DNA from: a virus
Strand: one strand, 5' to 3'
DNA: 29,308 nucleotides
IMG/VR virus record: IMGVR_UViG_3300030333_005401
Span: 1 to 29,308 of that record
The notes below the pieces were generated by a model, which saw only the letters and a list, made by a program, of their open reading frames with translations, did not search any database and had not been told where the DNA came from. The number at the start of each line of letters is the position of its first letter. Position 1 is the stretch's first letter. A program made the translations under genes and the position numbers. Positions 3,778 to 27,512 of this stretch are shown piece by piece.

Positions 3778-3781
3778 TGGT

Positions 3782-3979
3782 TCAAGTTTTATTCAATACT
3801 TCTTTCAAAAGAGATTTAATTTCATCAATATCAGATCGTAACTTTTTAAGTTCTTGCTCTTCAGTTATTTTCTTATTTCTCATTGCAATATATTGTGAAT
3901 AACCTTGAGAATCGTTATTCACAATAGCACCAGAGTTTTCATCTCTATAAAGATGTTTATGTCCTTGAACAGGTATCAT
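3782..3979 (-). CDS. Small conserved-looking protein with C-terminal coiled coil
   Basis: This 65-residue protein begins MIPVQGHKHLYRDENSGAIV, followed by a polar helical tail (residues 39-62, EEQELKKLRSDIDEIKSLLK). Hydrophobic spacing in the tail (L, L, I, I, L, L, V) suits a short coiled coil or amphipathic helix. I recall similar short proteins beside tail genes in marine T4-like phages, always without a function. The start overlaps the stop of the 2401-residue gene by 1 nt (TAATG), which indicates translational coupling. It is the last gene before the third late promoter. It could be a small structural subunit or an assembly factor for the neighbouring giant protein. Neither is shown by the sequence. 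Confidence 0.65.
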   Translation of the reverse strand: MIPVQGHKHLYRDENSGAIVNNDSQGYSQYIAMRNKKITEEQELKKLRSDIDEIKSLLKEVLNKT

Positions 3980-9900: not shown

Positions 9901-11184
9901 ACTAGCAGTTTTTCTTCTAGAATAAAGAGAAACTGTGTTTGCTGCAATATTTGTACCTATGGCAGGTGTTCCTGATACGTTATTAACACGAATTAAAGTT
10001 CCCATATCAAATGGAACTAATGCCGTATTTACACTATTAGTATCTCTCGGTTTATCAAAATCTATGATTGAAGTTCCAGGTTCATTAATACGAAATCCTT
10101 TAACATATGCTTTACCTGCACTTATCTCTACACAAGCTAAATCATCCGATGGAGTATTTCCATCTTCAGTAATTTCATTTGATTTGAAAATGCCACCATT
10201 TGAAAGTCTATTATCAAGAGATTCTGAAATATTAATTTTAAAATTATCAATAGAATAATTTCCAGACTCTTCATATGTTCTAGCAGCCAAATATTTTTCT
10301 AATTCATTATATACCGAGAAATCTTGCAGTTTCTTAAGTTCACCTTTTCTTAATTTAATTAATTCAACAAAATTAGAATTATTAATATCATCTAAGGATT
10401 TCTTTGCTAAAGTTGCAGTTATTTTAAGTCTATCAGCACCAGGTGCTGCAAAATTAGAAAATCCCTTAGCATTATCATATAATGAAGAATCATCTTTTGC
10501 AGTAATAATAGATTCTAATATATTCAAACCAACTCTATAAGATGGTTGATTTGAATATGGATCTAATATTATAATGTCGCTAGAAACGTCTACAAACGTT
10601 CCTCTTATGAAGTATACACCAGACTTCATTTTCACAGCACTACCCGTCGCAGAGGCGTTTAAAGGTATCAATGAAACAACACTTTCTCCAGTAGATATAG
10701 TAGTATTACCATAAACTATATCTTCTAACGCAATTAAAGGTTCACCATCTGTTAAATTAGATATTTCTTTATTATCATTTCCTGTAAGATATTTAATAAA
10801 CAAAGTTGGATTTGTAATATCTGCAGAATCTGTTGGAAATTTTACATCATTAACTTGAATTTCTACACCAGAATTTTGCCCTTTTAATTTTTTACCTATA
10901 AGATTAGTGGAATAAAGAGATATTGGAAGACCAAGATTTTCAGACTCTACCTTTACTGAAAAATACGAATCGTCAAAGAAAACACTACCAGGAATGACCA
11001 TAGATCCTTCCTTAAATACATGTGACCCAAAAGACTCTACTTGATTTTGAAGTATTGATTGAAGAGTTGATAATTCTCTAGCTTGAACAGGTCTACCTGG
11101 CCTAAACAATACTTTATAAAAATTATTGTCCTTATTGAAATCGTCATAATAAGGACTTATATTTAAATTAGTTTTTTGTGACAT
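3979..11184 (-). CDS. Giant virion structural protein with DUF4815-type N-terminus
   Basis: This 2401-residue protein is probably a peripheral baseplate or tail fibre component. Residues 1-70 (SPYYDDFNKDNNFYKVLF, then RPGRPVQARELSTLQSILQ) match the start of the DUF4815 family of T4-like marine phages. Two PPPP segments lie near residues 1498 and 1558. The second leads into a domain (about 1565-1790) starting DPLAQSFTVDETGMFLSS and including ASKDDNIPLTVQIR and YKVWISQMSEE, which is common in cyanophage structural proteins. A GxGY-type glycine module sits at about 1828-1910. The C-terminal 200 residues contain a conserved-looking AAYRDSTADFRVLYRLF. It starts 4 nt after gp8 and takes the position of T4 genes 9-10, with which I see no similarity. 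There is no catalytic motif or transmembrane segment. The exact virion location is unproven. Confidence 0.75.
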   Translation of the reverse strand: MSQKTNLNISPYYDDFNKDNNFYKVLFRPGRPVQARELSTLQSILQNQVESFGSHVFKEGSMVIPGSVFFDDSYFSVKVESENLGLPISLYSTNLIGKKLKGQNSGVEIQVNDVKFPTDSADITNPTLFIKYLTGNDNKEISNLTDGEPLIALEDIVYGNTTISTGESVVSLIPLNASATGSAVKMKSGVYFIRGTFVDVSSDIIILDPYSNQPSYRVGLNILESIITAKDDSSLYDNAKGFSNFAAPGADRLKITATLAKKSLDDINNSNFVELIKLRKGELKKLQDFSVYNELEKYLAARTYEESGNYSIDNFKINISESLDNRLSNGGIFKSNEITEDGNTPSDDLACVEISAGKAYVKGFRINEPGTSIIDFDKPRDTNSVNTALVPFDMGTLIRVNNVSGTPAIGTNIAANTVSLYSRRKTASVADAPPAGGFEIGKARVYSFGLRNTPYVDNASQWNLHLFDVQTYTYLTLNTALTAEITSFVRGASSGATGFINNPVSATTQIILSQTSGSFIPGEKIIINELEESTRTITSLRQYTFEDIKSVYQNTNGISGGITGFIDFSADTVLETTRISSLPSTNDAIITTSGASNGFSTGTIVSPGNAFTGIKTDSIIQYQVGGRSDVTFTRVSDISPDLKTLTVVGVATVSGINEGEIGSGGTGISTTSTLSLASPVVVDKENTGLYAKLDRSNISEVNLSNSTLSVSNQTNEFTLSSNSFTRSITDLKTGITSAYYSNFDTQKYSLIYDDGTVESLTRDQFKLLDASSRVQFSGLSRSSGDAVLNVTVEKQGITNKTKQYIRSNQIVINKTNSGVSTTTNGLTSNPYYGLRIEDREISLNVPDVANVIAVLESKDSNNPTLDKITTVSGLSLNINSVVGEKVIGTESGAVAQIVNRVDDANVEVVYFTNIRFTLGELITFQESNIKTTVQSITLGNNVNITERYSLDKGQREQFYDYSRIVRKRNATPPDRRVLVVYDSYEVPTTDSGDLFTVNSYDKDRFSHDIPLLSNNVRATDVLDFRPRVSEYVGVSSSPFAFTSRSFSGNGATSSLVVSPEGDSVLGYSYYLPRIDKLILSAGKDYEGDFGVIKGVSSLTPKAPELIDGSMHLATIELPAYLYNANDAKITLVDNKRYTMRDIGKLEDRIENLEVITSLSLLELDTKTLQVKDITGDRFKSGFFVDDFRDNQRLDLENQDNTVNIDRNNQEMIVPTDVYSIKPLLGVSESVDITSADFSQNLPLLDANIQKTGDLITLAYTEVKSDIGNPQASRVENINPYEVVVRNGQIILDPSQDNWSRDIEIDGGTFTREGDNEGTVVETIQTGSIPIEFIRSRNVGFSAYSLTPGVRHYPFFEGRSGIDIVPKLIEISMVSGTFSIGETITGSIGDDGAQLISFRTAQPNHKVGTYDEPTSEFPSNPYDTSLTLGTAYTESSTVLNVDIASLTEEAQGNFFGRIATGMRLVGRTSGAIATISDIRLIPDDHGALYGSFFFRDPTVSPPPPLRFTNGLNTFRITSDVNNANPLPGDEASITRGDAAYSTSGTINQFTSTTTITRRPPPPVNEGDPLAQSFTVDETGMFLSSLDLFFASKDDNIPLTVQIRTMELGTPTGQVVSDFAQVILDPTTTDSSGTSIIKTSTDASLPTRVTFPSPVYLEPDTEYAICILSPATIKYKVWISQMSEETIESQILSVDPGEKNIVQKQYLGGSLFKSQNGTIWTATQTQDLKFNLYKCSFTTEPGSLTLFNSDLSTNNKINFRLQDNSIKSYPRKLKVGIDTTSTLNNTITVGTKVSASNVSPYTNSTDAKGFVEKIGGPIVPNTGISTNVIGVGYTNTGSPYSNVNLYSITGDGSGATATVIVNASGSISNVSIAATGNGYAVGDVLGITTADVGNAGAGYEVTVATTFGMDTLFLTNVQGEKFNNGRKLVYYSDIAAGTILSAGGPEIRGDSTVNGDLYNGNIMEISNFNHSMKSDQHVIEINNVSPDTIPELLTADLSATDSTISIASTVPFATFEGISTNRGYVQIGQEIIFYDGIGIDSLSIGTRGISNTPIDNHTIGDQAFKYEFNGISLTGINTNHSMPTNSTLQDLKNINSYFLEIPRGSGRPNLLDRSTGVNQISFTNEKFGGGSLIVGSQNFQYDNFIPSFNVFTPAVSTKISSQLRSISGTSEGGSEISFVDQGYENVEFNQFNELSSPRLLCSKVNENAKLTNLPRNKSVTLLSKFTTSDSNLSPVLDTMSGSFKFVRNRLNNPISDYATDSRSNRLSGDPHAACYISQKVDLKQASTGLKVLVAAYRDSTADFRVLYRLFKTDSSEVEQSYELFPGYDNLKDVGIDKIIVDPKLNSGRPDTLVPASVENEFREYEFTIDNLDEFVGFQIKIVISGTNEATPPRFKDLRAIALA

Positions 11185-11187
11185 GTT

Positions 11188-12837
11188 TTAGAACTCTAGT
11201 ATAACTTTGATGTCTTCTTTTTGTCTACTATCTCTAGTAATTAATTGCCTATTATCCAAGTAGATAATATCACCCGACTGATTATTTATCTCAGATTGTG
11301 CTAACCCATTTTTAAATTCAACCCCAAGATCTATAATTTTAGTTCCTGTAGGATTTGTAGTTATTCCACTAAAATTACTATCTATTTTTACACCAGTAAT
11401 ATTAGTGGAACCATCAGTGAATTTTAAATCTAAATTATTGGTAAAATCATAAATCTGACCATTGCTACCAGCAAGATCATCAATATCTGTAGTATCACTC
11501 TGATCACCTGTTGTAGTGTTAAAATATAAAGACCTATCTCTATAATATTTTAAAACACCAACTTTATTATTTTCATCACTTGATATAATATCAAACGAAG
11601 AAACATACCCTCTTACTTGACCAATTACAGTACCAGAATCATTTTTTACATCTTGAGTAATTAAATCACCAATTTTAATACCACTAATAGGAAATTCATT
11701 CAAATATAAAGAAGAAACTGAAGAATATTGATTTTGCTGGAAAATTTGTGTAGATCCAATTGATGTTGGATTTTTAACAATTCCTATCTGTGCAAATTTA
11801 GTATCAATTGGAAAATCTTTAGTAGAGTCATCAAATCTTGCATAAACTAAAACTCTATCTGCACCCAATTCTTTGTAAATATTATATCCATGACCTTTTG
11901 ATGGTGGAATAATAGGAATTAACTTTGCACTAGGATTTTCCGACTTAAGAGGTGTTAAATCAACAAGACCGTAAGTATATCCTTTACCACCAACCGATAC
12001 CTGAACATCACTAATTTTAGTATCAGTTCCCACAGTTACGATAGCCTTTCCACCAGAACCATCTCCAACAATATTACATTCTTGCCCAACACCACTATTT
12101 CTTTGATAACCAGATCCACTTTTATCCACATAAATTGTTTTAATTTGATTATTATTAATATCAGAGTTTCCATTATCTCTTACATTAGATATATTAGCAT
12201 CATCAGAAGATGACCAATTATTTGGCAATGGTATATACTCTGTTGCATCAAATTTTATGATATCACTTGGAGGAACAGTAAACAAATACTTCCAAAGATA
12301 TCCATCATCACTAGAACCAGTTGCTCTGAATGGTTCTAATCCAGTTAAAGTTGGTTCATTTAAAGAACGTTCTCCTGTGGTATTAATACCAGATGATCCA
12401 TTGTTAATACAAATATAAACATTAAAATCTTTATTAATCACATAATAATTAGTATCATACAATCTAGCAGTTTTACCATTTGGTGCTTGATTATCATTAG
12501 AATAGTCATGACGATACATATCATATCTAGTTTCTTTAGTCCATTGAACTTTTCTTATGACTCTTCTAACATTATCTGCTGTAATTTTTTTACCAAAAAT
12601 CATAGTATCTTTAGTATGATTTAAGTAATTAAAATTATCTATTGGTTTTTTTCTATCAGTTTCATTATTCCATTCTGGATCAGTAGCATTTCTACCAAAA
12701 GCTACTGAGGATCTAACCGCAGCAGAGGGATTTGATAATCCTACAAACACATAATAAGAGTTTTCAGAATTATTTACATCTCCTAAAAAATTACCTGCGT
12801 TATTAATTCTAAATTGGTCTGTTACAATTGCCGACAT
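11188..12837 (-). CDS. 8: T4 gp8-type baseplate wedge protein
   Basis: This 549-residue protein begins MSAIVTDQFRINNAGNF, followed by NSYYVFVGLSNPSAA. I associate this start with proteins annotated as gp8 baseplate wedge subunits in marine T4-like phages. In T4, gp8 dimers bind gp7 within each wedge. T4 gp8 is only 334 residues, so this one is expanded. A conserved-looking core at about residues 110-200 includes YDTNYYVINKDFNVYICI and DDGYLWKYLFTVPPSD. Two GxGY-type modules (SGSGYQRNSG and GGKGYTYGLV) lie at about 232-290. The gene follows the gp7-type gene as in T4. A TATAAATA late promoter lies 22 nt upstream. No Shine-Dalgarno precedes the ATG. Function follows from family recognition and synteny. 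Confidence 0.75.
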   Translation of the reverse strand: MSAIVTDQFRINNAGNFLGDVNNSENSYYVFVGLSNPSAAVRSSVAFGRNATDPEWNNETDRKKPIDNFNYLNHTKDTMIFGKKITADNVRRVIRKVQWTKETRYDMYRHDYSNDNQAPNGKTARLYDTNYYVINKDFNVYICINNGSSGINTTGERSLNEPTLTGLEPFRATGSSDDGYLWKYLFTVPPSDIIKFDATEYIPLPNNWSSSDDANISNVRDNGNSDINNNQIKTIYVDKSGSGYQRNSGVGQECNIVGDGSGGKAIVTVGTDTKISDVQVSVGGKGYTYGLVDLTPLKSENPSAKLIPIIPPSKGHGYNIYKELGADRVLVYARFDDSTKDFPIDTKFAQIGIVKNPTSIGSTQIFQQNQYSSVSSLYLNEFPISGIKIGDLITQDVKNDSGTVIGQVRGYVSSFDIISSDENNKVGVLKYYRDRSLYFNTTTGDQSDTTDIDDLAGSNGQIYDFTNNLDLKFTDGSTNITGVKIDSNFSGITTNPTGTKIIDLGVEFKNGLAQSEINNQSGDIIYLDNRQLITRDSRQKEDIKVILEF

Positions 12838-12858
12838 TTTCTATAGACTTTTTTTCTT

Positions 12859-12866
12859 TATTTATA
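12859..12866 (-). promoter_or_regulatory. T4-type late promoter (TATAAATA)
   Basis: An exact TATAAATA on the minus strand lies in the 34-nt gap between the gp7-type stop and the gp8 start. The expected start of transcription is near 12853, about 16 nt ahead of the gp8 ATG. It would boost gp8 and the giant gene after it. I see no terminator before it, so readthrough from the upstream late promoter would also reach gp8. Confidence 0.8.
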
Positions 12867-12871
12867 CTATA

Positions 12872-15800
12872 TTAAGTTGAATCCTTTATAGCACCCGTTT
12901 CTCTAAGTCCAGAAGATCTTCTTTGAAGTCTAGGGAAAGTTGTTAATCCAGAATTAACAGTTTTACCAGATACTGTAATTGTGAGGGGATTTGTTAATGA
13001 TCTTGTACCACCAGTTAACTTACCCCAAGAGAATCTGCCACAAATAGTATTCTCTGTAGCAATACCCACAATTGATGCATCTGTTGTTACTCCTGCAACA
13101 AATTCACCCAAATTACTACTTGAACTTAAAGAACTAACAATGTAAATGTTATCAAAGAATGTTGTTCCAACGCCTACAGGTGCACCTGATGATATTATAG
13201 TAGATGTTGCTCCAGAACCAACAGAAGTGTCAAATATACAAACAGGATCTCCATTTGCCAAACCACTAAATGTTCCTGATTCTTTTTCAAGGAAGAATTT
13301 AATAGTTGAACTACTAAGAACTGTTATTCCTGTTATAATACCAGAGAATCCAGTAGCAGCAGTAAATCCACTAATTTCTTCAGATGGTGTTACTGGTACT
13401 GGTGCTATAACATTAGGAACAGAAGAACTAGTATATCCAATACCAGGATTTACTACTGTTACTGAAGTCATAATACCATTTGTTATATTACCTGTTGCTG
13501 TTGCAGTATTTACAATAATACCTGTAGTAGGAATACCAATTGAAATGGATGTTGTCGCTCCAACATAACCTAAACCACCATCAATAATTGAAATAGAACT
13601 AACAGTACCAGCAGCAGACACAACAGCACTCAGAGAAGCAGATTGTCTAGTAATCGAATCATCAATAACTAAAGCACCTATTTTTGTAGGACTGTCATAA
13701 GAAAAGAAATTATTAATACTATCAAGATAAATTGTAGAATCTCCAGATGCCACATCTTTAATAATTTTTGCATCAGGAAATACCAATGGTTCTATTAAAG
13801 GTCTAATTTTAGTAATTAATTCTCCATCTACAACCTTATCAGATTTTTGTTTAATCCATCTAACAGGTTTAAAATTAACATCATCAATACCTTGAGAATA
13901 ATATAATTCAGTTTCAACAGTATCTGCAGTTGCTATTCCAGATATCGTTCTTATATTTTGATCTACTGAAGAAATATTATTACTCTTCAATATTTGAAGT
14001 TGATCGCCATTTTTAATAGATTCTTTAATATTTACGTAAGTAACGTCAACATCATTTTCTCCTTTGTAGAAGAAAATAGCTACATCATCTTTAGGATCAA
14101 TTGCTTCAGTAAATTGAATTCTAGTTCCACCATCAAAAATATAAGATTCTCCTGGATTTTGTAAAACACCATTAACGAATATTAATAATAATGATTTCAT
14201 GTCAAGAGATGCTCCAGATTTAGATTCAAATGACACTAATTGTCCATTATAATTTAACGGGAACACTGTTCTAACTCCATCCTGAAGAGATGCAATAGAA
14301 TCAATGTAATCAAATTCACCAACATTCCAAGAGCAGAAAGTATCTGTAAATACCTCATTTACTGTAAATTCAATCTCTGATAATGGTGATGATAATGACT
14401 TATCGGTGACTAATCCTACAGGTTTAAACTTATCACCCTTTCTAAATCCATATCCACTTCTAGTAACATCAAAAGATTTTACTTCAAATAAAGTAGATCC
14501 AATACCAGTTGTATTACTACCTCCAACATCAATAGTCAATAATAATCCAGTTCCAGTATCTGTTGTAGCACCAAGACCAACTCTTGAAATTCCTGTTATT
14601 GGTAAATTTTCATACCTTGGAGATGGTGATATTACAACTGGATTAATATATCCAGTTCCACCAGAAACAACAGAGAATATTAAAGTTCCACCAATACCAA
14701 CAGTTGCAGTTACATTTGCACCAGTACCAGCTCCGCCACCAGTTCCAACACCAACTTTAAAATAATTATCAGTTGCTTCAAGAATATTTAAATCTGTATT
14801 GTAAGCTGGGTCTGTTGAACGTGGATATGTGTGATCAGTTTTATGTGCATCTTTATCGCAAGTATATACTAAAGAATCTGTTGCTATACGAATTGTATTA
14901 GCAGATCTTTTAACACCATTAGGGGAAGCAGTTACAAATGTATGAATACCTATATTTGATGATGGAATGGTCTCAAGTACATTAATTTCAAATTGATCAC
15001 CTCCAGTTACATTAGATATCGGTAACCATTTACCACCTACAGGATCTGTTGCTCTAGGATATGTGTGATTACTCTTATGAAGATCTTTTGCACATGTAAA
15101 TGTAAGAGAATTATTATCAAATCTTACTAATTGACCATTTGCTAATGTAGGTGAAGGTGTTGAATTAAGTTTTACTGTTAAAATACCAACATTTGGATCA
15201 TATATAGTTCCTGTAGTTGCTGTATGTGAATCTGAGGTAATAAGACCATGATTATTCTTTGTAAAGGTTACAATACCAGTTGATGATGTATAAGGAGCAT
15301 CAGTGGGTGTAAATGTAGTATCTACTCCTATTCCACCATTTTTGACAGTTATAGAATTAGTGTTAGAACTTTTAAATCTATGATTATATGCTTCATCAAT
15401 TACATCAATTTTAATAACACCATTTCCTGATGTACTTATACCAGAATCATATCCAGAACCATGATCATCTTCAGATCCACCTCCAATAGAAGTTATAGTT
15501 CCATTGGAATTAGTAACTGCAGTTACAGAAGCTCCAGCTAAAGGTGCATATCCTAATCCACCAGAATATCCAATTGATATAATTTGTCCAGATCTAGGTA
15601 ATTGATTTTGATTAACATCAGACTCACTAATTATTTGGGTTCCATTTACAGAAGAAATTCCACTAAATACAAAACTTGTTATTCCAGCAGACTCACTAAA
15701 ATCATAATTATTTAATGGATTCATTTCTGTTGTTGGTCTTTGGAATATACCATTAATTGTTAAGAAACTACTACCAGTTGTAAGACCAGTTGTATTTACC

Positions 15801-18800
15801 CCAGATATCGAAGTTCTGAATGTTTGTGCTATACCTGTAAATTCATGAGACACGTCATCAAAAATAGCATTAGATGAATAATTCTGTCTTAGATATACTC
15901 TACCAGTAAAACTTGCTCTACCACGATCACGATTAGACTCGTCTTTCTCATTAATATTAGTTCCTCTAGGTGGATCTGTAAAAAATATATTTTCTGCAAC
16001 TATGTTATATGAACCTTTAAATAATCTAACAGTAGAACCATCACTATGAGTAGTTGCTGTAGATCCAACAGATGCCCTTGTAACATCTAACAATTTTAAA
16101 GATCCAGTATTAGATATTGGACCAACATTAGTAGTTCCAAAACCAACATTATTAACTTTTATATATTCTTCATCTATTTTTAAAATATCATTAACTACAA
16201 TTGTTGTAATTCCAGATAAAGATATTATAGAAGTTGAAATTGAAACTTGATTATTAACATTATTATCTAAAGTAGTTGTTATAGGTGTATATGATAATGG
16301 TGATTGAATAACATTATCGAGTGTAATTAAAGTTTTTTCATTTTTCTTAAACATCTCCAACTTATGTCTATTTCCAACTCCTACACTATTAAATGTAATA
16401 GCAGTTCCTCCTCTAGTTGTTGATAATTTAAATGTATTTGAATTAGTTGTTCCTGAAGGAAGAGAAACATAAACTTCACTAGGTAAAGGATTTCCATTAG
16501 ACATTACTAATGAAGAAATACCGACACCATCTATTGATGAACCAGGTGAATATATTAATCTTTCATTTCTATTAAAGAAATTATTTTTAATAATAAATTC
16601 TCCAGTTGCTAAATTAACATCATTTACTGGATTAAAATAATTAGCAAATATAAGATTATTATTATTTTTTAATTTAAAAAATCCAACATTAGATCTATCA
16701 CCATTTATAGAATCGAATTGTAAAAGTGATATTGTTTTTGATGATTTACCATAAGTTAAACTAGGTGCTACATTTATTAAATCTAAATCAGTATTAAGAA
16801 CTTCATTATATGACTGGACTTGTAAATTACCAACTCCTATAAAATCAGAGTCTGGGTGGAATTTTAAATTAAAATTAGATCCATTAAGTTCTGTAGAAAA
16901 AGTTCCAATTCCTAATTCCGTCCCAATAGATATGAATGGATATTGTGTAATAAAACTATTATCTCCATCATGTGCCATTAAAATCTGATGAAGAGCACTA
17001 GTATTTCCTATTGAAACTTTAATAATACTTTTAACTGTTGTATCCTTAGATGAAGTAAATCCGCATATAGTGGAAGTAGATCCTATACTTACAAATTTAG
17101 ATTCCAATCTAGCAGAATTCTCAGACCCATCAGGTTGACCATCTATGTTGAATCTATATGTTCCAATACCAGATGCAGTTGTTCCAAAACCAACGATTTT
17201 AGATCTAACAGAAACTTGATTTAGTCTATCATTTTCATATTTTAAAGATAAAATTCCAGAATTAATATCTGATGTAAATGTTCCTATTGCATTTCCTGTA
17301 TTAGATTCTAAGGAATAATTAGATATATATGAATTAGTTTCATCATGTGTCACATAAAGTTCCACTATATTATTTTCATTTGCAGTATCATCAATTATAG
17401 AAATAGTAGCAAAATAAGATTCTATAGTACCAATACCAGAAGATATTATAGTTGAAGTAGTAGAAGGAGAAATATTAACATTTTTTCCTGTTAAATTGAC
17501 AAATCCAATATTAGTTGTTCCAATACCAACTCCTGATATAAAATTATCACCAAGAATTTTAATATCTAAATTTTTATTATAAACATCAACTGGATTAAAT
17601 TGTAAATTATAATTATCATTCGTATCTTTATTTCCAATAATATCTACTAATTTATTCTCATCATTAATAGAACTTTTTTCAATTGTATAGATATTTTTAT
17701 TAATAAAATCTACAGATGTTATTAATTCTGTAACTTGAAGTGTATTTGTATTTTGTGTTATTCCAGCATTAGGAACTCTAGTTTGAATCAAAAATCTATT
17801 AAAAGAATCTGTAATTGATAAAGTTCCATCTAATTTTATATTATTAGTAGAGTCTGAAAATAAAGTGCTAATATCATCTATTTGTATTACCCTATTAGTA
17901 CTACATTCAAAATAATCGGCAAGTTTTTTATTTTGAAAATTAATAAATTTAGATCTTTTAGGATTCTCTATAATATCAATATCTCTTACTAAATCAAAAT
18001 TATCTATTGCATCAACTCTATTTTCAGATGTTAAATCTCTTATAATTGTAGATGCATCAATAGAATTTTGTGTACCAGCATCAACTGATGAAGATATTCC
18101 AACATCAGCAAAGTTTTTAAGACCAGTTGTATGTAATAATTTATTTACAGGACTTACTAATTTTTTATATTCAATTGGACTCTGAATGGTATATGATAAA
18201 TTTTGATAATAATCATTATCTGGTAATACTTGATAATCTTCATTTAACTTTCCAACATCATCAGACCAACCTTTAATTATAGATGAAGAAAAGTCTACAG
18301 TATAATCACCCTTATTTTCTAATAAAGTATTAACTGTAGCTATAGATCCAGTAAATACACCTTGTATTTTATCACCAACTCTTAAATCATATCGACCTAA
18401 AACTTTTATATAATTATTTGATTTTCTGTCTAAAATAAGATCAACTTCTTCAAATGGTTGATTATTTCTAGAAACTAGAAGATTTTCACCAATACTAAAT
18501 GGTGAAAGATCTGTGGTAATATTAAATTTTGGATAATTTTTAAAATTAACTACAGAAGCATATGTTTGAAGAGTTTTAGCTAATCCTGGATTTGTTACTA
18601 ATCCATTTAAATTAATTTCAAATTTAAATGGATTTGGATTAGTTCCTCCAATAATTCTGGTTACTGGATAAAATTTATATTCATTATTTGGTGAATTAAA
18701 AGTATTTCCATATTCATTTTCAACATTTTCAATAAATACAGTGTCTCCAACTGCAAATGGTGCTTCAGAAAATCCTAAAATAGGAGTTCCTAATGTGAAG

Positions 18801-21800
18801 GTTACTATTCCACTATTTTGATTTGTTATAATAGTTCCTCCAATTGCAATATTGGTTATTGAAATTCCGTTTGTATTATCTTGTGCGAATATCTGACATT
18901 CTCCAATTCCTTGTGGTGTAGATATAATTTCAACATTACTAATTGACTGAGTTTCTTGATTTAATTTAGCATCTAAAAACCCAGTATTTAAAACTTCATT
19001 TGATTCAGTATCTAAAACAACCAAAGTAGGTGCAGTTAAATAATGGTTTCCACCAAAAGAAACATCTACTAATACAATTTTATCTGAATTTTTTATAGTT
19101 ATTACAGGAGAAATATCAGCTATTGGTTTTAATGTTTTATCTGATGCATATTCAAAACCAACATTAACTATTTCGGTAGTTTTAATTTTATTACTATTTT
19201 TTGAATTGGGTAAAATTTTAGCATTAGAACCAGTAGTAGAAGCAACACTTACAAATTTTGGCATTGATTTATAACCATTTCCTCCAAAAGTTAAATCTAC
19301 TTTATTAATAGGTCCTTTTTCATTCTTTGAAGTAGTTGAATAATTTAAAGATTCTGTATTATCTACATTATACAATAAATTTTCTGGTTTTTTACTTAAT
19401 CTAATATCAAATGTAGTTGTTCCCTTTCCAACAATCGAATAATTATTATTATATTTACTTGCTTCATAAGATATTTTAGATCCATTAACAACATCAATAT
19501 CAGACGTGCTTATAAAACCTGATTTTTCGACATTATAAAATAAATTATCTGGAGAATTTGAAGAATAATTTATTGTTAAAGAAGCTGTAGGTGTAACTCC
19601 AATCGTTCCAGAAGTAGAAACTATAATAGTTGTTGTTCCTGCAGAAACAAAAGTATTGTTAAAATTACTATCCTGATATATTTTAAAATCTAATCCAGAT
19701 AATGAAGAATCCGAAATATCAAATACTAAATTATTATTTTTTACAATAGAAATCGGAGGATTAATTAAAGATAATGTATGTGTTGCACCAACTGATTGTA
19801 AATTTACAATTTTTGGAGGTATGATAGATGAATCTTTTAAAGTTTCTGCTAATTTTATTTTATTATCATCAATCTTATAAACAAAGTAACCCCCAGTTTC
19901 TAATCCACTAGACACAGTTGCAGCATCATAATAAACTTTATCTCCTGTTTTAAATCCATGAGAATTTAAAGTTATTATATTCGTAGATGTATTAATTCCA
20001 CTAGAACCAAAACTTCTTTCATTTATTAGTAAACTATCAATTAAAGAACTATATTTAACTCTTACACTAGTAGATGTACCAATACCAACAGATTGATTTG
20101 GTTTTATATCTAAACTAATAATATCTCCTACAGATAAATTATGAGATGTTGTTAAAGTAACTTTTGAATTTATTCTTTCTAAATTTCCAGTTACTTGAGT
20201 AAAATTAGATTCAAATGCATATTCAAAATCATTATCTCCATTAGATCTGAAAAATAATCCATTAGTTGTTGTTAAACCCACTTGAGTTACAATTCCAATA
20301 TAATCTTTAGATTTATTAATAGCAAATACAGTTTGACTATTTCCTGATAACGGTAAACTAAATTGCTGACTTACTGATCCATCTCTAGAAACTGAAATAG
20401 ATAAACCTCCAGAAGGTGGTTTTTTAAACGTAATTGGTTGCCCAGTTTTAAATGGATGATTTGGTAAGTATATACTTTGTGCCATGACAGATACTTGTCG
20501 TGAAGTATCACCAACAGACACAGTTATTGATGAAGATATACCAACTGTAGTTGCTATTCCTATAGATTGTCTAGGATTAAAATAAACTATATCATCTAAT
20601 TTAGAATCAAATGAAGTAGATTTAAAGTTTAAATCAAAGAAACTAGGAATTAATTCTACTTTTGAAGATAATGTATGTGCAGTCCCAGTTATACCCCTCT
20701 TAACTCTTAAAATATTTCTATCATCAAATTTATTGAGAACTAATAACTTTTCAGTTCCAATACCTATACTACTTCCAACAGAAATAACATTTGTTCTATC
20801 TACAAAAATATCTTGAACTATACCTACAGTGGTATTTGAAGGAACTTCTTTATATAAAACAGTACTTTCAGTTGGAATATTTGATATTACTTGATTTCCA
20901 AATAAAGGAATCCCATTTACAGAAGAAATATCTGTTGTTAATCCAGATATTTCTAAATTATTTCCAATAGATAAATCATGAGTATCTGGAACAAAAACTG
21001 AAATTGTATTTTGGTTTTTTCTAATAAAGGATACATTATTTAAAGATTCATATGAAGTATCAATTTTTAATATACTTTTACCCTTTAATTCAGATATAAA
21101 AGCACTTACTCCACTTCCATCTACACCAGTATTATCAAAAGTTACAGTATCACCTATTTTATAATTATCTCCAGATTTAATAATATCTAAAGATTCTACT
21201 TCACCTTCAGATACTGAAGTAACTATTGTTTTTTGAGATAATAACTCATCAGATTCAATAATAAAATCATTATCTGCAAATTTATCTGATAATTTATATG
21301 GAAAAGTATTTCTAACTAAATTTGAATTATTGAAATCAAATGATTGTGTTATTCTACCAGTAGAATCTAAAGTGTTTGGTATTGATTTGTAAGAATCACC
21401 TATAAAATATGGAAATTTTGGAATTGAAGGAAAAACACTATCATCTATAGTTGCAAAATATGCATAAATTCCATCAGGATATTCTGGAGTTTTACCAAAT
21501 CTACCATTATGCTCATCTAAATCTGTCGTAGATGTTGGTGTATATGAAAAATCATCTACAAAGAATCCAAGTGGAAAATCTAAATCTGTTCTATTTTCAA
21601 TTGTAGAATTTAAAGAATATCCTGGTTTTAGTATTTTTATATCAGAATCAGAATCCAATGGATCAGAATGTCCAAATGGTCCGTAAATTGGATTACCATC
21701 ATATGCCCATCCAATTATTGGTGAATGTTTACCACTTATCTGTCCAAATTGACTTTCTCCAATTTGGGTGGAATATCCAACAACTGAATACTTTAATCCA

Positions 21801-24800
21801 TTATTAGAAGCAATTAATTGTTTATCAGTATATTTTGCAATGTATGGAGAATTTGTTTGAATATTACATATATTTAATTCATTAATTGATATACTAAATA
21901 CTGCATTTTTTCCTCTTGGAACTACATTAATTCTTGTTTTATTAAAGGTATAACCAAATCCACCATTTATGATAATAACATCAATAATTTTTAAATATGT
22001 TTCTGATTTTTCATCTCTATCAATAACTGGTCTTAACTTAGCACCAAATCCATCTCCAATAACTTCTAAATCTGGTGTAGAGTAGTATTCAGCACCACCA
22101 TCTTGAATATTAATATTAGTTATTATTCCATTATCTAATATAACACTTAAAGCAGGAGTTATATTTTTGCCAGTTCTTGTTAATCCATTTTTAATAACAA
22201 TATCAGGTTTATTTTCATAATTAATAATATTTTTATCCCCATATCTAGATCCTTTTTGATATAAAGATGTATCTACTATTTTACCTTTAATAACTGGAGT
22301 TAATATTAACTTTTCTGATGTAGGAACAGAATATGAAACATTTGCAACTATTTGAATATCAGGATATTGAAATAGTTGATATCCAGTTCCCTTAGTTTTA
22401 AAATTAATATATTTTCGACTTAAAAAATCACTATTATCTGTTCCATCAACACCAGCATAAGATACTCTAAAATTATTATCATCAATTTTAAGTATTTTAT
22501 ATTGACTTGTAGTACTTAAACCAGATATTGATTCTGGAGTTGTCGATCCTAATCCAACAGTTGGTTTATATACAACTATTTCACCATCAGAGAATCCATG
22601 ATTGTTAAATGTAACTATTGATTTTTCTGTTGATATTCCACTATTTGAATTGGCAAAAACCTTTCTACTCAAATATGGTTTTCCTGACTGTACAACCCTA
22701 ATTTTACTTAAATAATTTTTTGAATCTCTTAATTTAAATTTATGTATACCATTTTTTGCAATTTCAGTAAATCCTATAGTATTAATACCACTAATATAAT
22801 CATTTTCATTTCTATAAAGTCTGATGGTTGAACTAGTACCAACATTTCCAATAATTTCAGGCCAATATTGTTGACCCTCAATTAAAAATTCTGTATCTGA
22901 AACATTACTACCTTTAAATACTCCAATACCTAATTGTGGGTTTTCATTTCGATCATAAACTAATACTTGACCATTTTGTATTCCATGTGGTTTTAAAAAT
23001 GTTATAGTTTCTTCATTCGTATCAATTCCACCACCAAAAGATGTTGTTACTCCACTAAATTCTAAAACTCTATTTCTTTTTGATAAAATTGGTAATAATA
23101 TAGCTTCTCCACTATTTCCTCCACTTATTTTTAACGATTCTATACTTTCTATATCAAAATTCTGTGGATCAACTAATATCTCCTCAATATCACCACTTAT
23201 TATAGGACTAACAAGTGCCTCAGTTATTTCTGTTGATCCAGTGGAAACTATGTTAATTGAAGGTGGATTAATAACATCATAATCGGTACCAAATCCAACA
23301 CATGAAAAATTACTTATTGGTCCATAAAAAATACTATCACGTGATTTGCCATTTTCAATTTCAACACCATCTTTTAACATTCCTATAGGTCCAGGAATTG
23401 TTTTTATCTTTTTACCTAAATTTTGATTAACTTCTATAGGGAATTTTTTTAATATTTTTTGAGAAGTAATTTTCTTATTATAATGATCATGTAAAATAAA
23501 AGAATGTGCTTTATTAATATCTGCTGGTATACCAAATTCAATAAACAAATTAGAATCTATAAATGAAGGTGATTTATATAATTTTATTTTATTATCGTTT
23601 ATATTTTTAATAAAATAAAATCCTGAAGTTAATCCAACTAAACTATTACCTTCAGGTTCATAAAATACTTTATCACCTGTTACAAAAGGAATATTTGATA
23701 CTTGATCAAATAATATAGTTGAATATTTTTGAGTTACTGGATTATAATCTTGTACCGTGTTATTTTTAGTTACTGTAGAAATACTAACTTTAGAAATATC
23801 ATTATTAATTACATAAGATGGTAAAGAACCACTTGCCACATATAAACTTTCATCAGATTCATTATATACATTTTGAATATTTGAAGTCAGTATATCATTT
23901 CCAAATTCAATAAGATTGGGATTATCAGCTGATACCTTTTTAAGAACCCTTCTAATTGAATAAATCTTAGTACTAAATAAATTTTCTATACTATCTTCTA
24001 AAGTTACACTATTTTCTGATAAAGATAAGTCTTTAATTCTTGAAGTTTTAAGAATTTTTCCTAAAGAAAATGAATCACTAGTTTTTTCTAAAAACTGAAC
24101 TTTATCACCTTTCTTTAAACTTGATTCATCAATAGTAGATTTTAATACAAATTTACTTTTTATACCTTCTATTCCATCCTTAATTTGATAAGTACTAGAT
24201 GTATTATAAATCCAAGAGTTTGCAAATATTTCTTTTTTAGTTTTATCTAAATCTGAAGGATTTTTAATTAATTCACCAATACTTTTAATTTTAATAGTTT
24301 CACCCTTTAACGATAATCTATTATTTAAAGGAGAAGGTATAAATTCTTTTAAAACCCCAGTTACTCTTAGTTTAACTTTTTTTGATAAATCACCATTTTC
24401 ATAACCAACAATAAAATCATCTACAATAATATCAGTTCCTATACCTATATTTTCAGTATTAATACCCTTACAATTTAAAAATTGATTTACTGTTTTATCT
24501 GTATATGTAATATTTGTATTAAGACCAGCAATAACTGTACCTGTAGCACCAAAACCAATAGTAGAATCAACGGTTATGACCGATGATCCAATACTTACAG
24601 GATCAATCACTTTTGTTTTACCTGTTACATTGAAAGTTCCAGTTATAAACTCTTCATCATTATATCCAACAAAAATATCTACATTAAAATATTGTTTTGA
24701 ATTGGGTAGTGAAGTTAATCCCGTTAATTTTTCAACTTCAGAAATTGAAGCTGTAGTTTGTGGATCTGTTGATCTAAATATTGTCTGCCCTTGTAAATTT

Positions 24801-25585
24801 AAAGGATCACCATCTCCTATTAATTCTGCAACTATTCTTTCTCTTCTTATATACTTTGCAGATGATGGTTTTACTAAGTATTTTTCAAGATCAATTACTT
24901 TTGGATTTACTCCATATAAAACATTAAATAAAATTCTAAATGATTCTTCCGTTCCCTTTGATTGATAAAAAGTTCTTGCTTCTTTTATAAAATTATTTAC
25001 ATCTAAATTTTCTACAAAGTCTGAGTTTTCTAATCCAGGTGTAAATGTTTTCTTTAATTTTTTATAAAATTCTTGTAAAAATAAAACACTTAAATTCTGT
25101 ACATTAGATCCACTAACATGTGATGATGCAGATGAATCTGAAAAAGTTAATTCTGATGGATTATTAATATCTCTATATGATGTTATTCCACTAAATCCAC
25201 GTTGACATCCTGTAAAAGTATTAGTTCCTTCTACTCCTGTATATGTTATAATTTCATTTCCAATTTTTAATAAACCATATTCACTTGGATATCCATCCAA
25301 AGGATTTCCATTATTAGAACTGACAGTAATTACCCCTACAGTTGAATCAATATTATATGATAAAGTTGTTATTCCTGAAATAACACTTTGATTTAAGTTA
25401 TCTAATTTAATATACTGATCTAAATTATCTACTAGATCTATAGGAGCACCAGTATACTCTTGAGAAATATAATATTGTTTTAAAAACTCTGCAGTGTTTG
25501 GACTTTCAGATAAAACAAACTCTGGAAGTTGATTTTCAATTATCTGTTGAACTTTAACTCTTTTATCAATACCAGTACCTATCAT
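12872..25585 (-). CDS. 7: Giant gp7-type baseplate wedge protein with YHYH-like and repeated modules
   Basis: This 4237-residue protein lies between gp6 and gp8, where T4 has gp7 (1032 residues). Gp7 links gp6, gp8 and gp10 within a baseplate wedge. Residues 1-290 (start MIGTGIDKRVKVQQIIENQL, later EFYKKLKKTFTPGLE, FYQSKGTEESFRILFNVLYG) look like the conserved gp7 head of marine phages. A YHYH-like domain lies at about 1287-1400, with GWAYDGNPIYGPFG, LDEHNGRFGKTPEYPDG and YAYF at 1374-1377 replacing the YHYH signature. Modules with an HG(F/I)xxGD/E/Q core recur at about 867, 996 and 1876, with looser variants elsewhere. Paired domains sit near 2747/2872 and 3498/3576. An NGVLQNPGESY beta domain lies near 3804. 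GxGY modules occur throughout. GAGG precedes the ATG, 1 nt after the gp6 stop. The open frame is unbroken. Calling the whole protein gp7 relies on position and N-terminus. Confidence 0.75.
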   Translation of the reverse strand: MIGTGIDKRVKVQQIIENQLPEFVLSESPNTAEFLKQYYISQEYTGAPIDLVDNLDQYIKLDNLNQSVISGITTLSYNIDSTVGVITVSSNNGNPLDGYPSEYGLLKIGNEIITYTGVEGTNTFTGCQRGFSGITSYRDINNPSELTFSDSSASSHVSGSNVQNLSVLFLQEFYKKLKKTFTPGLENSDFVENLDVNNFIKEARTFYQSKGTEESFRILFNVLYGVNPKVIDLEKYLVKPSSAKYIRRERIVAELIGDGDPLNLQGQTIFRSTDPQTTASISEVEKLTGLTSLPNSKQYFNVDIFVGYNDEEFITGTFNVTGKTKVIDPVSIGSSVITVDSTIGFGATGTVIAGLNTNITYTDKTVNQFLNCKGINTENIGIGTDIIVDDFIVGYENGDLSKKVKLRVTGVLKEFIPSPLNNRLSLKGETIKIKSIGELIKNPSDLDKTKKEIFANSWIYNTSSTYQIKDGIEGIKSKFVLKSTIDESSLKKGDKVQFLEKTSDSFSLGKILKTSRIKDLSLSENSVTLEDSIENLFSTKIYSIRRVLKKVSADNPNLIEFGNDILTSNIQNVYNESDESLYVASGSLPSYVINNDISKVSISTVTKNNTVQDYNPVTQKYSTILFDQVSNIPFVTGDKVFYEPEGNSLVGLTSGFYFIKNINDNKIKLYKSPSFIDSNLFIEFGIPADINKAHSFILHDHYNKKITSQKILKKFPIEVNQNLGKKIKTIPGPIGMLKDGVEIENGKSRDSIFYGPISNFSCVGFGTDYDVINPPSINIVSTGSTEITEALVSPIISGDIEEILVDPQNFDIESIESLKISGGNSGEAILLPILSKRNRVLEFSGVTTSFGGGIDTNEETITFLKPHGIQNGQVLVYDRNENPQLGIGVFKGSNVSDTEFLIEGQQYWPEIIGNVGTSSTIRLYRNENDYISGINTIGFTEIAKNGIHKFKLRDSKNYLSKIRVVQSGKPYLSRKVFANSNSGISTEKSIVTFNNHGFSDGEIVVYKPTVGLGSTTPESISGLSTTSQYKILKIDDNNFRVSYAGVDGTDNSDFLSRKYINFKTKGTGYQLFQYPDIQIVANVSYSVPTSEKLILTPVIKGKIVDTSLYQKGSRYGDKNIINYENKPDIVIKNGLTRTGKNITPALSVILDNGIITNINIQDGGAEYYSTPDLEVIGDGFGAKLRPVIDRDEKSETYLKIIDVIIINGGFGYTFNKTRINVVPRGKNAVFSISINELNICNIQTNSPYIAKYTDKQLIASNNGLKYSVVGYSTQIGESQFGQISGKHSPIIGWAYDGNPIYGPFGHSDPLDSDSDIKILKPGYSLNSTIENRTDLDFPLGFFVDDFSYTPTSTTDLDEHNGRFGKTPEYPDGIYAYFATIDDSVFPSIPKFPYFIGDSYKSIPNTLDSTGRITQSFDFNNSNLVRNTFPYKLSDKFADNDFIIESDELLSQKTIVTSVSEGEVESLDIIKSGDNYKIGDTVTFDNTGVDGSGVSAFISELKGKSILKIDTSYESLNNVSFIRKNQNTISVFVPDTHDLSIGNNLEISGLTTDISSVNGIPLFGNQVISNIPTESTVLYKEVPSNTTVGIVQDIFVDRTNVISVGSSIGIGTEKLLVLNKFDDRNILRVKRGITGTAHTLSSKVELIPSFFDLNFKSTSFDSKLDDIVYFNPRQSIGIATTVGISSSITVSVGDTSRQVSVMAQSIYLPNHPFKTGQPITFKKPPSGGLSISVSRDGSVSQQFSLPLSGNSQTVFAINKSKDYIGIVTQVGLTTTNGLFFRSNGDNDFEYAFESNFTQVTGNLERINSKVTLTTSHNLSVGDIISLDIKPNQSVGIGTSTSVRVKYSSLIDSLLINERSFGSSGINTSTNIITLNSHGFKTGDKVYYDAATVSSGLETGGYFVYKIDDNKIKLAETLKDSSIIPPKIVNLQSVGATHTLSLINPPISIVKNNNLVFDISDSSLSGLDFKIYQDSNFNNTFVSAGTTTIIVSTSGTIGVTPTASLTINYSSNSPDNLFYNVEKSGFISTSDIDVVNGSKISYEASKYNNNYSIVGKGTTTFDIRLSKKPENLLYNVDNTESLNYSTTSKNEKGPINKVDLTFGGNGYKSMPKFVSVASTTGSNAKILPNSKNSNKIKTTEIVNVGFEYASDKTLKPIADISPVITIKNSDKIVLVDVSFGGNHYLTAPTLVVLDTESNEVLNTGFLDAKLNQETQSISNVEIISTPQGIGECQIFAQDNTNGISITNIAIGGTIITNQNSGIVTFTLGTPILGFSEAPFAVGDTVFIENVENEYGNTFNSPNNEYKFYPVTRIIGGTNPNPFKFEINLNGLVTNPGLAKTLQTYASVVNFKNYPKFNITTDLSPFSIGENLLVSRNNQPFEEVDLILDRKSNNYIKVLGRYDLRVGDKIQGVFTGSIATVNTLLENKGDYTVDFSSSIIKGWSDDVGKLNEDYQVLPDNDYYQNLSYTIQSPIEYKKLVSPVNKLLHTTGLKNFADVGISSSVDAGTQNSIDASTIIRDLTSENRVDAIDNFDLVRDIDIIENPKRSKFINFQNKKLADYFECSTNRVIQIDDISTLFSDSTNNIKLDGTLSITDSFNRFLIQTRVPNAGITQNTNTLQVTELITSVDFINKNIYTIEKSSINDENKLVDIIGNKDTNDNYNLQFNPVDVYNKNLDIKILGDNFISGVGIGTTNIGFVNLTGKNVNISPSTTSTIISSGIGTIESYFATISIIDDTANENNIVELYVTHDETNSYISNYSLESNTGNAIGTFTSDINSGILSLKYENDRLNQVSVRSKIVGFGTTASGIGTYRFNIDGQPDGSENSARLESKFVSIGSTSTICGFTSSKDTTVKSIIKVSIGNTSALHQILMAHDGDNSFITQYPFISIGTELGIGTFSTELNGSNFNLKFHPDSDFIGVGNLQVQSYNEVLNTDLDLINVAPSLTYGKSSKTISLLQFDSINGDRSNVGFFKLKNNNNLIFANYFNPVNDVNLATGEFIIKNNFFNRNERLIYSPGSSIDGVGISSLVMSNGNPLPSEVYVSLPSGTTNSNTFKLSTTRGGTAITFNSVGVGNRHKLEMFKKNEKTLITLDNVIQSPLSYTPITTTLDNNVNNQVSISTSIISLSGITTIVVNDILKIDEEYIKVNNVGFGTTNVGPISNTGSLKLLDVTRASVGSTATTHSDGSTVRLFKGSYNIVAENIFFTDPPRGTNINEKDESNRDRGRASFTGRVYLRQNYSSNAIFDDVSHEFTGIAQTFRTSISGVNTTGLTTGSSFLTINGIFQRPTTEMNPLNNYDFSESAGITSFVFSGISSVNGTQIISESDVNQNQLPRSGQIISIGYSGGLGYAPLAGASVTAVTNSNGTITSIGGGSEDDHGSGYDSGISTSGNGVIKIDVIDEAYNHRFKSSNTNSITVKNGGIGVDTTFTPTDAPYTSSTGIVTFTKNNHGLITSDSHTATTGTIYDPNVGILTVKLNSTPSPTLANGQLVRFDNNSLTFTCAKDLHKSNHTYPRATDPVGGKWLPISNVTGGDQFEINVLETIPSSNIGIHTFVTASPNGVKRSANTIRIATDSLVYTCDKDAHKTDHTYPRSTDPAYNTDLNILEATDNYFKVGVGTGGGAGTGANVTATVGIGGTLIFSVVSGGTGYINPVVISPSPRYENLPITGISRVGLGATTDTGTGLLLTIDVGGSNTTGIGSTLFEVKSFDVTRSGYGFRKGDKFKPVGLVTDKSLSSPLSEIEFTVNEVFTDTFCSWNVGEFDYIDSIASLQDGVRTVFPLNYNGQLVSFESKSGASLDMKSLLLIFVNGVLQNPGESYIFDGGTRIQFTEAIDPKDDVAIFFYKGENDVDVTYVNIKESIKNGDQLQILKSNNISSVDQNIRTISGIATADTVETELYYSQGIDDVNFKPVRWIKQKSDKVVDGELITKIRPLIEPLVFPDAKIIKDVASGDSTIYLDSINNFFSYDSPTKIGALVIDDSITRQSASLSAVVSAAGTVSSISIIDGGLGYVGATTSISIGIPTTGIIVNTATATGNITNGIMTSVTVVNPGIGYTSSSVPNVIAPVPVTPSEEISGFTAATGFSGIITGITVLSSSTIKFFLEKESGTFSGLANGDPVCIFDTSVGSGATSTIISSGAPVGVGTTFFDNIYIVSSLSSSSNLGEFVAGVTTDASIVGIATENTICGRFSWGKLTGGTRSLTNPLTITVSGKTVNSGLTTFPRLQRRSSGLRETGAIKDST
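14807..15094 (-). repeat. Duplicated Cys-Asp-His-His module in the gp7-type gene
   Basis: Two in-frame copies lie at 15041-15094 (residues 3498-3515) and 14807-14860 (residues 3576-3593). Both read C-x-x-D-x-H-x-x-x-H-T-Y-P-R-x-T-D-P. They are exactly 234 nt (78 codons) apart, and similarity continues weakly on both sides. DNA similarity is also visible, for example ggatatgtgtgat in both copies. Confidence 0.85.
16972..17347 (-). repeat. Tandem approximately 125-residue domain pair in the gp7-type gene
   Basis: Two related segments are anchored on THDETNSYIS (His 2747) and AHDGDNSFIT (His 2872). In each, the core is followed by a strand series with IGTF and then SLKYENDR or NLKFHPDS. Spacing is 125 residues. 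They are divergent at DNA level but clearly parallel in protein. Coordinates given run between the two anchor histidines. Confidence 0.7.
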
Positions 25586-25586: not shown

Positions 25587-27512
25587 TTATCCTCGTATTA
25601 ATTCTCCGTTTGTGTAACTTGAAGTAACCTTATATCCAACACCAGATATTTGATCACCTGATGAAATAGTATCCTTAACCATATTTATCGTACTATCAGA
25701 TATGTTAAATTTTAAATATAAATCCTGAAGTCCTATGACATCATTCGATTCTGGAAATGCTTGAACCTCTATAATATTATTTGGTTTTTCAGTTGATGTT
25801 ATATTAATTGTAGTCAAATTAATTTCACCTTTTATGTAATCAACAGTTCCTGCATTTTCAATAATAATTATTTTTTCACCATCAACAACATCTCTTCTAA
25901 CAATAGAAATTATTCCTGTCTTTTTATCAGCATTTGGTATGTCTGAAAGATATACTGTCGATGATAATCCAGAAATTGTAAATCCAGTACTCTTAATATT
26001 TAAACCTGCAGGTTTAACATTGAATTGATTACCAAAACAAAGTTCATATTGTGCAAATTGATTAATAAGAGCATTTAAATTTCTTCTAATTCTTACTCTT
26101 GTTATATTTGAAGTTATAGAATCTTCTATATTGTCAATTACACTTAAAACTTTACTATATTTAAATCTACCACCAAATTTATTAATTTCAGTTGATTTAG
26201 AATATTCTGTTAAACCATTAATTACATTTGTTTTTAATCCAGTTATATTATTAACTTTTGATGAATTATAATAAATAAAGGATTCTAATTCTACATGAAG
26301 AACTTTAAGATCTATTATTTTTTGATTTATTCCTGTTAAAGAATAATTTTTTAAATCTGATAATATCCTATTTTTATCAAAATCAGATACAAAATCACCA
26401 TTTTGAGGTTTTATTGTAATAAAAACGGTTCCAAACTGAGGTGGATCTATTTCTTCTCCACCAACAACCGAAACACTCTCAGTATTTGGGTAAATTTGTT
26501 GTATTATTGCCTCATAATCCCTTGCTGTAACCGCCCTGTACTGTGATGAATACAATCTAGGGGCAAAATACTTAATAGAGTCTACAGACTCAATATCACC
26601 GCCATTAGAAGCACCTGAAGTTACTGTTATCTCTGGAGTACTACTTAAAGAAGCAGTAGATCCATTAGAAGTTTCTATAGTTCCTGCGAATGAGAATGAT
26701 GATGGACCATTACCATCTTTTCCGTCAGTAACAATGTAACTAATATCAATTATTTTACCATTTTCTAATTTTTTACCAAAAATACCATCACCGAAGAGAA
26801 GTTCATACCTTTCATCTTGAACTTCTTGCAATAAAAATGTTGTAGAAGATGGTTTTATATTTAAAATATTATCTACTTTAGTAAATAGAATTCCTTTATC
26901 AGCGTCATCAAGTTTATCCTTTACATAAACAATAATTGTTGAAGTGTCAATAGATGGATTATCTAATATAAATCTTTGATCTAAAGATCCATCAACTGTA
27001 AAGGTTTTTCTTAAAAATGTACCTTGTAAAACTTCAATTGAATCAAAATTTGCTTTATATCCTATAGGATTATCCCCATCAAATACTATTGTTGTAGTAG
27101 TGGTTATATCCTCTGGAATTGAGAAAGTATATGTTACATTATTACCTACACCAATACAAACTAAACCTGCTTTGAGGGTCACTGAGGAAGGTTGTGAGGT
27201 ATCTGTTGACTCTATTTTATTAATACTTATAGTTGCTTTTGCTGCAGTTTTAGATCTTGGGACATATCCAATGTTTCTTGCTAATGAAACTACGTTTTCT
27301 CTTACCGTTGCAGAGTCTAAAAACGATTCATTAACAACTAAATTAGAGTTAACCGCAGTTATATACGTATTATATGCTAAAGTATCAATTAAAACCGAAA
27401 AATTAGACCCTTCAAAGTCAAAATCAGAAAAATCTGAATTTGAACGTAGATAATCCTTAATCGACGTTTTTATTTGATCAAAATCTAAGTTTGAAAATTT
27501 AGTAAATGGCAT
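25587..27512 (-). CDS. 6: T4 gp6-type baseplate wedge protein
   Basis: This 641-residue protein is close to T4 gp6 (660 residues). The N-terminus (MPFTKFSNLDFDQIKTSIKD, then SNFSVLIDTLAYNTYITAVN, FLDSATVRENVVSLARNIGY) is the typical gp6 start. The middle region includes YELLFGDGIFGKKLENGKII (about 226-245) and RLYSSQYRAVTARDYEAIIQ (about 315-334), which are baseplate J/gp6-like motifs. Gp6 dimers form the inner ring that joins six wedges around the hub and clamps gp25 and gp53. The ATG follows the gp25 stop by 1 nt, and the stop precedes the gp7-type start by 1 nt, so the three are one transcription and translation unit. No unusual insertion or break is seen. Confidence 0.92.
   Translation of the reverse strand: MPFTKFSNLDFDQIKTSIKDYLRSNSDFSDFDFEGSNFSVLIDTLAYNTYITAVNSNLVVNESFLDSATVRENVVSLARNIGYVPRSKTAAKATISINKIESTDTSQPSSVTLKAGLVCIGVGNNVTYTFSIPEDITTTTTIVFDGDNPIGYKANFDSIEVLQGTFLRKTFTVDGSLDQRFILDNPSIDTSTIIVYVKDKLDDADKGILFTKVDNILNIKPSSTTFLLQEVQDERYELLFGDGIFGKKLENGKIIDISYIVTDGKDGNGPSSFSFAGTIETSNGSTASLSSTPEITVTSGASNGGDIESVDSIKYFAPRLYSSQYRAVTARDYEAIIQQIYPNTESVSVVGGEEIDPPQFGTVFITIKPQNGDFVSDFDKNRILSDLKNYSLTGINQKIIDLKVLHVELESFIYYNSSKVNNITGLKTNVINGLTEYSKSTEINKFGGRFKYSKVLSVIDNIEDSITSNITRVRIRRNLNALINQFAQYELCFGNQFNVKPAGLNIKSTGFTISGLSSTVYLSDIPNADKKTGIISIVRRDVVDGEKIIIIENAGTVDYIKGEINLTTINITSTEKPNNIIEVQAFPESNDVIGLQDLYLKFNISDSTINMVKDTISSGDQISGVGYKVTSSYTNGELIRG

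Follow-up and report, generated by a model that had tools for sequence, protein, structure and literature searches.

The giant gene and its neighbours

The window, the whole 29.3 kb stretch of DNA analysed here (G+C 29.7%), is a virus fragment; the named phages closest to it are Kyanoviridae, among them P-SSM2 and S-SRM01. Its minus strand carries, in order, gp25, gp6, a giant gp7, gp8, a VrlC/DUF4815 gene, two small genes, gp13 and gp14, the neighbours of gp7 having been assigned with PHROGs and Pfam.

27514–27912, minus strand: gp25, baseplate wedge/sheath initiator (phrog_261)
25587–27512, minus strand: gp6, baseplate wedge (phrog_219, E 1e-200)
12872–25585, minus strand: giant gp7 (baseplate wedge), 4237 aa, 459 kDa, a single ORF (phrog_2885 matched by residues 3–4223, E = 0)
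11188–12837, minus strand: gp8, baseplate wedge (PF09215, E 1e-10; phrog_438, E 6e-142)
3979–11184, minus strand: VrlC/DUF4815 structural protein, 2401 aa, without the gp7 core blocks (Pfam/PHROGs; block profiles)

The gp7 frame runs uninterrupted from ATG to stop for 4237 codons and starts one base after the end of gp6; when the window was shuffled 50 times at the mononucleotide level, stop-free runs reached at most 152 codons. An earlier note, made from the sequence alone, had described an unbroken 4237-codon gene between gp6 and gp8, about four times as long as T4 gp7. The open frame and the shuffles bear out the first point, and the PHROGs and Pfam assignments confirm the position, on the minus strand, which that note had left unstated. 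The length ratio is 4.1, because T4 gp7 has 1032 residues. Upstream of gp25, a minus-strand ORF at 28316–29074 matches phrog_1574 (function unknown) strongly and phrog_34859 (glycosyltransferase) weakly.

Giant gp7 proteins form a family

The family phrog_2885 ("baseplate wedge subunit", 4179 positions) covers the window protein from end to end, residues 3–4223 aligning with positions 3–4178 (E = 0). Ten consecutive segments of 400–540 residues, searched separately as the earlier note had proposed, each matched the corresponding part of phrog_2885 in colinear order. Relatives of the first 500 residues are encoded in 571 of 599 candidate stretches from a viral collection, and the reading frame stays open to the end of the retrieved sequence in all 80 relative loci that we fetched. 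Twenty full-length environmental relatives on independent contigs are single ORFs of ~4020–4540 aa, colinear with the window protein at a mean identity of 41–71% per 100 residues; gp8 lies downstream of the gp7-position gene in 28 of 30 relatives' records. Insertions and deletions concentrate at ~3361–3630, and the only strongly variable zone is ~3400–3630. In comparisons with three relatives, dN was lower than dS in each of the eight segments of the protein, and the whole chain is therefore under purifying selection.

The gp7-position proteins of named Kyanoviridae range from 1016 to 6817 aa, with the window protein in mid-range. The lengths below were computed from listed CDS coordinates, except that of S-CREM2, which comes from a table in PMC10665884.

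Outside Kyanoviridae: CBA120, 284 aa; T4, 1032 aa
Kyanoviridae, shorter: HTVC008M, 1016 aa; S-CREM2, 1937 aa; S-H34, 1942 aa; DSL-LC02, 2514 aa; ACG-2014e, 3495 aa; S-SRM01, 3895 aa
Kyanoviridae, mid-range: ACG-2014f, 4225 aa; window, 4237 aa; S-T4, 4749 aa; P-SSM2, 5195 aa
Kyanoviridae, longest: S-CAM8, 6167 aa; S-RIM2, 6378 aa; S-SZBM1, 6619 aa; ACG-2014d, 6817 aa

The P-SSM2 copy (PSSM2_111, 5195 aa) is already annotated as gp7. Together with phrog_2885 it shares with the window protein its position, end-to-end colinearity, the core blocks A and B described below, the YHYH domain and the conserved C-terminus, but P-SSM2 gp7 is longer, with additional insertions, most of which follow window positions 3361 and 3629. 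Judged by sequence, the window gp7 is a typical representative of a known family of giant gp7 proteins, in which extreme length is the norm. The earlier reading of a wedge gene in the gp7 position thus stands for the full length of the protein. The S-SKS1 genome, as deposited, has its gp7-position gene (3910–16305) divided into four ORFs of 710, 1601, 1113 and 739 aa, through either a sequencing error or a real split.

The gp7 core is split into two blocks

The conserved gp7 core of the window protein is discontinuous.

24896–25045, minus strand: core block A, residues 181–230, FYQSKGTEESFRILFNVLYG (giant-free profile E 7.7e-9; aligns with T4 gp7 731–814)
18077–18232, minus strand: core block B, residues 2452–2503, DNDYYQNLSYTIQSP...LLHTTGLKNF (giant-free profile E 0.0015; top match in 24 of 24 giants)

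Profiles of both blocks were built from T4, Ackermannviridae, HTVC008M and S-H34 proteins only, with no giant included, and were run against 24 giants, the same 24 reversed, and 200 shuffles. Each profile gave its top match, in the expected order, in every giant (block A at 174–188, block B at 2384–2511). For block A the window protein scored E 7.7e-9 against a best null of 0.13. The block B match in the window is modest (E 0.0015, 12.2 bits; best null 0.45), and stronger ones were obtained for P-SSM2 (2e-6) and S-RIM2 (3e-16).

An alignment of the head of the protein matches T4 gp7 only at T4 residues 731–814 (hhalign P 1.4e-4; a tighter segment gives P 3e-5, and reversed controls give P 0.2–0.9). 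The aligned sequences read FYSTKGIEASYKFLFKVLYN, followed by LVGQTIY against LQGQTIF. Direct comparison of block B with T4 gp7 by hhalign was not significant (P 0.13), and its link to T4 runs through intermediates. PF23786, named Baseplate_wedge, describes the 284-aa protein that follows gp6 in CBA120; HTVC008M hits this family at block A, whereas S-H34 hits it over its last 45 residues, at block B. Following this second match led to the block B motif D.YYQ..SY.I......HP.G...F, present in CBA120, HTVC008M, S-H34, T4 (~850–895), S-RIM2 and all of the giants. The window protein itself matches PF23786 below the Pfam cut-off (15–19 bits against 27) and at block A only. A further short family, phrog_26741 (497 aa), is matched twice, its positions 84–137 by window residues 199–252 and its positions 375–473 by ~2437–2541; by sequence it is an independent family holding both blocks.

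Known gp7 proteins differ mainly in what surrounds the two blocks. T4 gp7 (1032 aa) also lies between gp6 and gp8 and has block A as a direct profile match and the block B motif in the same order; unlike in the window, ~700 residues precede block A and only ~100 separate A from B, so that most of its extra sequence comes before A. CBA120 orf216 follows gp6 and has both blocks with almost nothing between them. HTVC008M gp55 (1016 aa) and S-H34 gp52 (1942 aa) share the position, the N-terminal region and the split core, but their insertions are shorter (~520 and ~1,615 residues) and so are their tails. Both blocks are strongly matched in the gp7-position proteins of S-RIM2 and S-SZBM1 (6378 and 6619 aa); in these, block A is preceded by ~500 additional residues, and the insertion and the tail are both longer. 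The T4 gp7 Pfam domains Gp7_helical, Gp7_5th and Gp7_6th were found in T4 and CC2 and in neither the window protein nor P-SSM2, and the window gp7 was therefore not filed as T4-type (Straboviridae).

The earlier note had placed the conserved gp7 head in the N-terminal part alone. Block A does lie there, but the second half of the core is at ~2452–2503, and the N-terminal segment does not correspond to the N-terminus of T4 gp7, since it matches residues near the T4 C-terminal end. The body of the protein is therefore an insertion plus a tail. This anatomy appears under-described, and we did not find it in the literature searched, which was largely that outside subscription journals.

An AlphaFold (AF2) model of the 1016-aa HTVC008M homologue was unusable (pLDDT 38.5), and the S-H34 head, used as a query, retrieved no relative. 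P2 gpI, whose KGT helix is visually similar, was set aside as a relative, as neither block profile matches it, and is kept as a lead. The gene after gp6 in Rhizobium phage RHph_I46 (10760–13363, 867 aa, "hypothetical protein") contains block A, with block B weakly matched, and is probably a gp7. HTVC008M gp55 (33435–36485), which lies between gp6 and gp8 with both blocks, is annotated "head closure Hc2", a label that looks wrong.

Insertion, C-terminal extension and modules

In the window protein 2,221 residues separate block A from block B and 1,734 residues follow block B.

18233–24895, minus strand: insertion inside the gp7 core, residues 231–2451, beta-rich modules between A and B, colinear in all relatives
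21428–21736, minus strand: YHYH domain (PF14240, E 6e-25), residues 1284–1386, motif changed to YAYF
12875–18076, minus strand: C-terminal extension, residues 2504–4237, conserved to a TFPxxQRR..G.R..GA C-terminus
15041–15208, minus strand: CxxDxHxxxHxYPR module, copy 1, residues 3460–3515, absent from several relatives
14807–14971, minus strand: CxxDxHxxxHxYPR module, copy 2, residues 3539–3593
14048–14326, minus strand: NGVLQ domain, residues 3754–3846, modelled fold possibly resembling CBA120 TSP4 XD2 and the T4 gp10-type jellyroll (VIA Z 6.6, 6.5)

The distance between the blocks varies widely across phages (ends approximate).

Smaller insertions: CBA120, ~15–25 residues; T4, 85–100 (domain V); HTVC008M, 520; S-H34, 1,615
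Larger insertions: window, 2,221 residues; P-SSM2, 2,250; S-RIM2, 2,720; S-SZBM1, 2,790

All of the modules that the earlier note listed (YHYH-like, HGF-type, a Cys/His pair, NGVLQ-type and GxGY) are real: the protein contains five HGF-type motifs, NGVLQ at 3805, NGIFQ at 3278 and eight GxGY motifs. GxGY-type beta modules, beyond the eight in gp7, also occur after the gp14 core (3–1370) and inside gp8 (11188–12837). The two Cys/His copies are 43% identical to each other and possibly bind metal; one or both of these tandem modules (14807–15208) are lost in several relatives and mark an indel-prone zone. Matches to DUF4959, TLD and similar Pfam families fell below the cut-off and were ignored.

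Relatives of the protein are present in virions. Mass spectrometry of CsCl-purified S-SZBM1 virions recovered 71 peptides of S-SZBM1_208 (6619 aa), a coverage of 13.5% (PMC9146016); this gene adjoins gp6 and has block A at 690–739 and block B at 3532–3582. For S-CREM2 ORF122 (1937 aa), 91 unique virion peptides are reported (PMC10665884). The coverage in these relatives is too low to exclude processing of the chain.

Fold of the body

A model of the C-terminal part (residues 3256–4237, 31 sequences) is almost entirely beta and only partly confident (mean pLDDT 61). Within it, the NGVLQ domain at 3754–3846 aligns with residues 182–255 of CBA120 TSP4, at Z scores of 6.6 and 6.5 that lie below 8, a range in which a fold match can reflect a common arrangement, and, over the same stretch, also with other phage tail chains. 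A sequence profile of the region gave no significant match to T4 gp10 or the CBA120 TSPs. The modelled resemblance to an XD2/gp10-like domain is suggestive; XD2 and XD3 of TSP4 and T4 gp10 are docking modules (PMC8825819). Two barrel-like stretches, at ~3449–3562 and ~4079–4187, have matches in UBA1, in endosialidases and in N4 tail chains equally, and no function can be read from them; we treated the UBA1 matches as a common arrangement. Foldseek of the model against the PDB returned nothing at E < 0.001. Most of the named matches in BFVD were to wedge or structural proteins of cyanophages. Solved structures were also searched by sequence, with the full protein, the head alignment and the HTVC008M alignment each as query, and none of these yielded a relevant relative.

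A probable gp7 wedge subunit with a proposed inserted arm

The T4-like phages that infect cyanobacteria and SAR11 in the sea are highly abundant. We consider it likely that the gene encodes the Kyanoviridae gp7 wedge subunit, with a split core, an insertion arm and a tail, the latter two perhaps in a scaffold or docking role. The wedge architecture is common to T4, (gp6)2-gp7, and the T6SS, (TssF)2-TssG (PMC6300606). The gp7 core, which joins two gp6 chains in the T4 wedge, is encoded here in two pieces ~2,220 residues apart, with the insertion at the site of the ~100-residue domain V of T4 and ~1,730 residues following block B. At the level of sequence, our comparisons establish both blocks and the order in which they occur, where the insertion is sited, that the whole chain is conserved across the family, and that a homologue known from virions carries A as well as B. 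If both of its ends are held in the wedge core, the insertion would form a looped-out arm. T4 has six copies of gp7 (PMC3004832); the same number here would place a beta-rich mass of ~2.75 MDa around the baseplate. Arm and tail may then act as a scaffold or docking platform for fibres or receptor-binding proteins, sharing the work of T4 gp9–gp12.

The earlier note had suggested that so long a wedge protein could form much of a peripheral adhesion apparatus. Such a role, or one in docking, is possible, and three observations speak for it: in the window none of T4 genes 9–12 was detected behind gp8, where they normally lie; there is the XD2-like match; and spikes are known to be borne by parts of gp7 or gp10 type (PMC10457771, PMC8825819). 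The gp7 ortholog of XM1, gp17 (242 aa), holds the tail spikes by an internal stretch and by its C-terminus (PMC10457771), which sets a precedent for docking by parts added to gp7. Where T4 has genes 9–12, the window has VrlC and two small genes, which lie between gp8 and the neck genes, a gene order that fits a takeover of the gp9–gp12 work only in part. More tentatively, and as a proposal we lean against, Kyanoviridae may have gathered the peripheral baseplate largely into one polypeptide, with an insertion hot spot in the core, filled by anything from almost nothing to ~2,800 residues, and the tail giving rise to six covalent arms that replace gp9–gp12. Residue boundaries are now given for the inserted arm and the tail, and how a baseplate is built without recognisable gp9–gp12 beside gp8 becomes a directly testable question.

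The protein could instead be mainly a receptor-binding organelle, its body binding host surface glycans and its wedge role serving only as an anchor. The beta-rich barrels, with their weak fold matches to endosialidase barrels, and the XD2-like docking jellyroll are in keeping with this, as is S-SZBM1, which shows no long tail fibres by TEM and yet has a 6619-aa copy (PMC9146016). The fold matches, however, all have Z < 8 and are common to unrelated proteins such as UBA1; conservation is fairly even, with dN below dS everywhere, and the chain has no hypervariable tip such as a receptor binder would be expected to show. We therefore regard an adhesion organelle of this kind as unlikely.

VrlC, YHYH and assembly

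Cyanophages and pelagimyophages are said to lack gp7, apparently using VrlC in its place (PMC7029224). VrlC is indeed large, conserved and adjacent, but the block profiles matched neither block in the VrlC of the window, S-SRM01 or HTVC008M (n = 3), whereas both are matched in the gene that lies between gp6 and gp8. The published claim of gp7 loss and replacement by VrlC is not supported by these comparisons, and we think it very improbable; with both halves of the core located, it is settled which gene is gp7, in contradiction to the VrlC assignment.

The YHYH domain of the wedge protein belongs to a family of predicted metal hydrolases (PMC7824862), and its presence could point to an enzyme-bearing tail protein in which it acts as a metal-dependent wall hydrolase. 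The motif, however, reads YAYF in 23 of the 24 aligned members and YAYY in the other, so that both motif histidines are gone throughout, and a structural or binding role for the domain is therefore more likely. Pfam and profile searches of the window gp7 found no other enzyme domains, and a hydrolase is, in our estimation, highly unlikely.

Mis-assembly or a chance fusion of unrelated genes, against which the earlier note had cautioned and which size alone might suggest, is effectively refuted and has a negligible probability, since the same colinear single ORF occurs in 20 independent contigs and in several isolate genomes.
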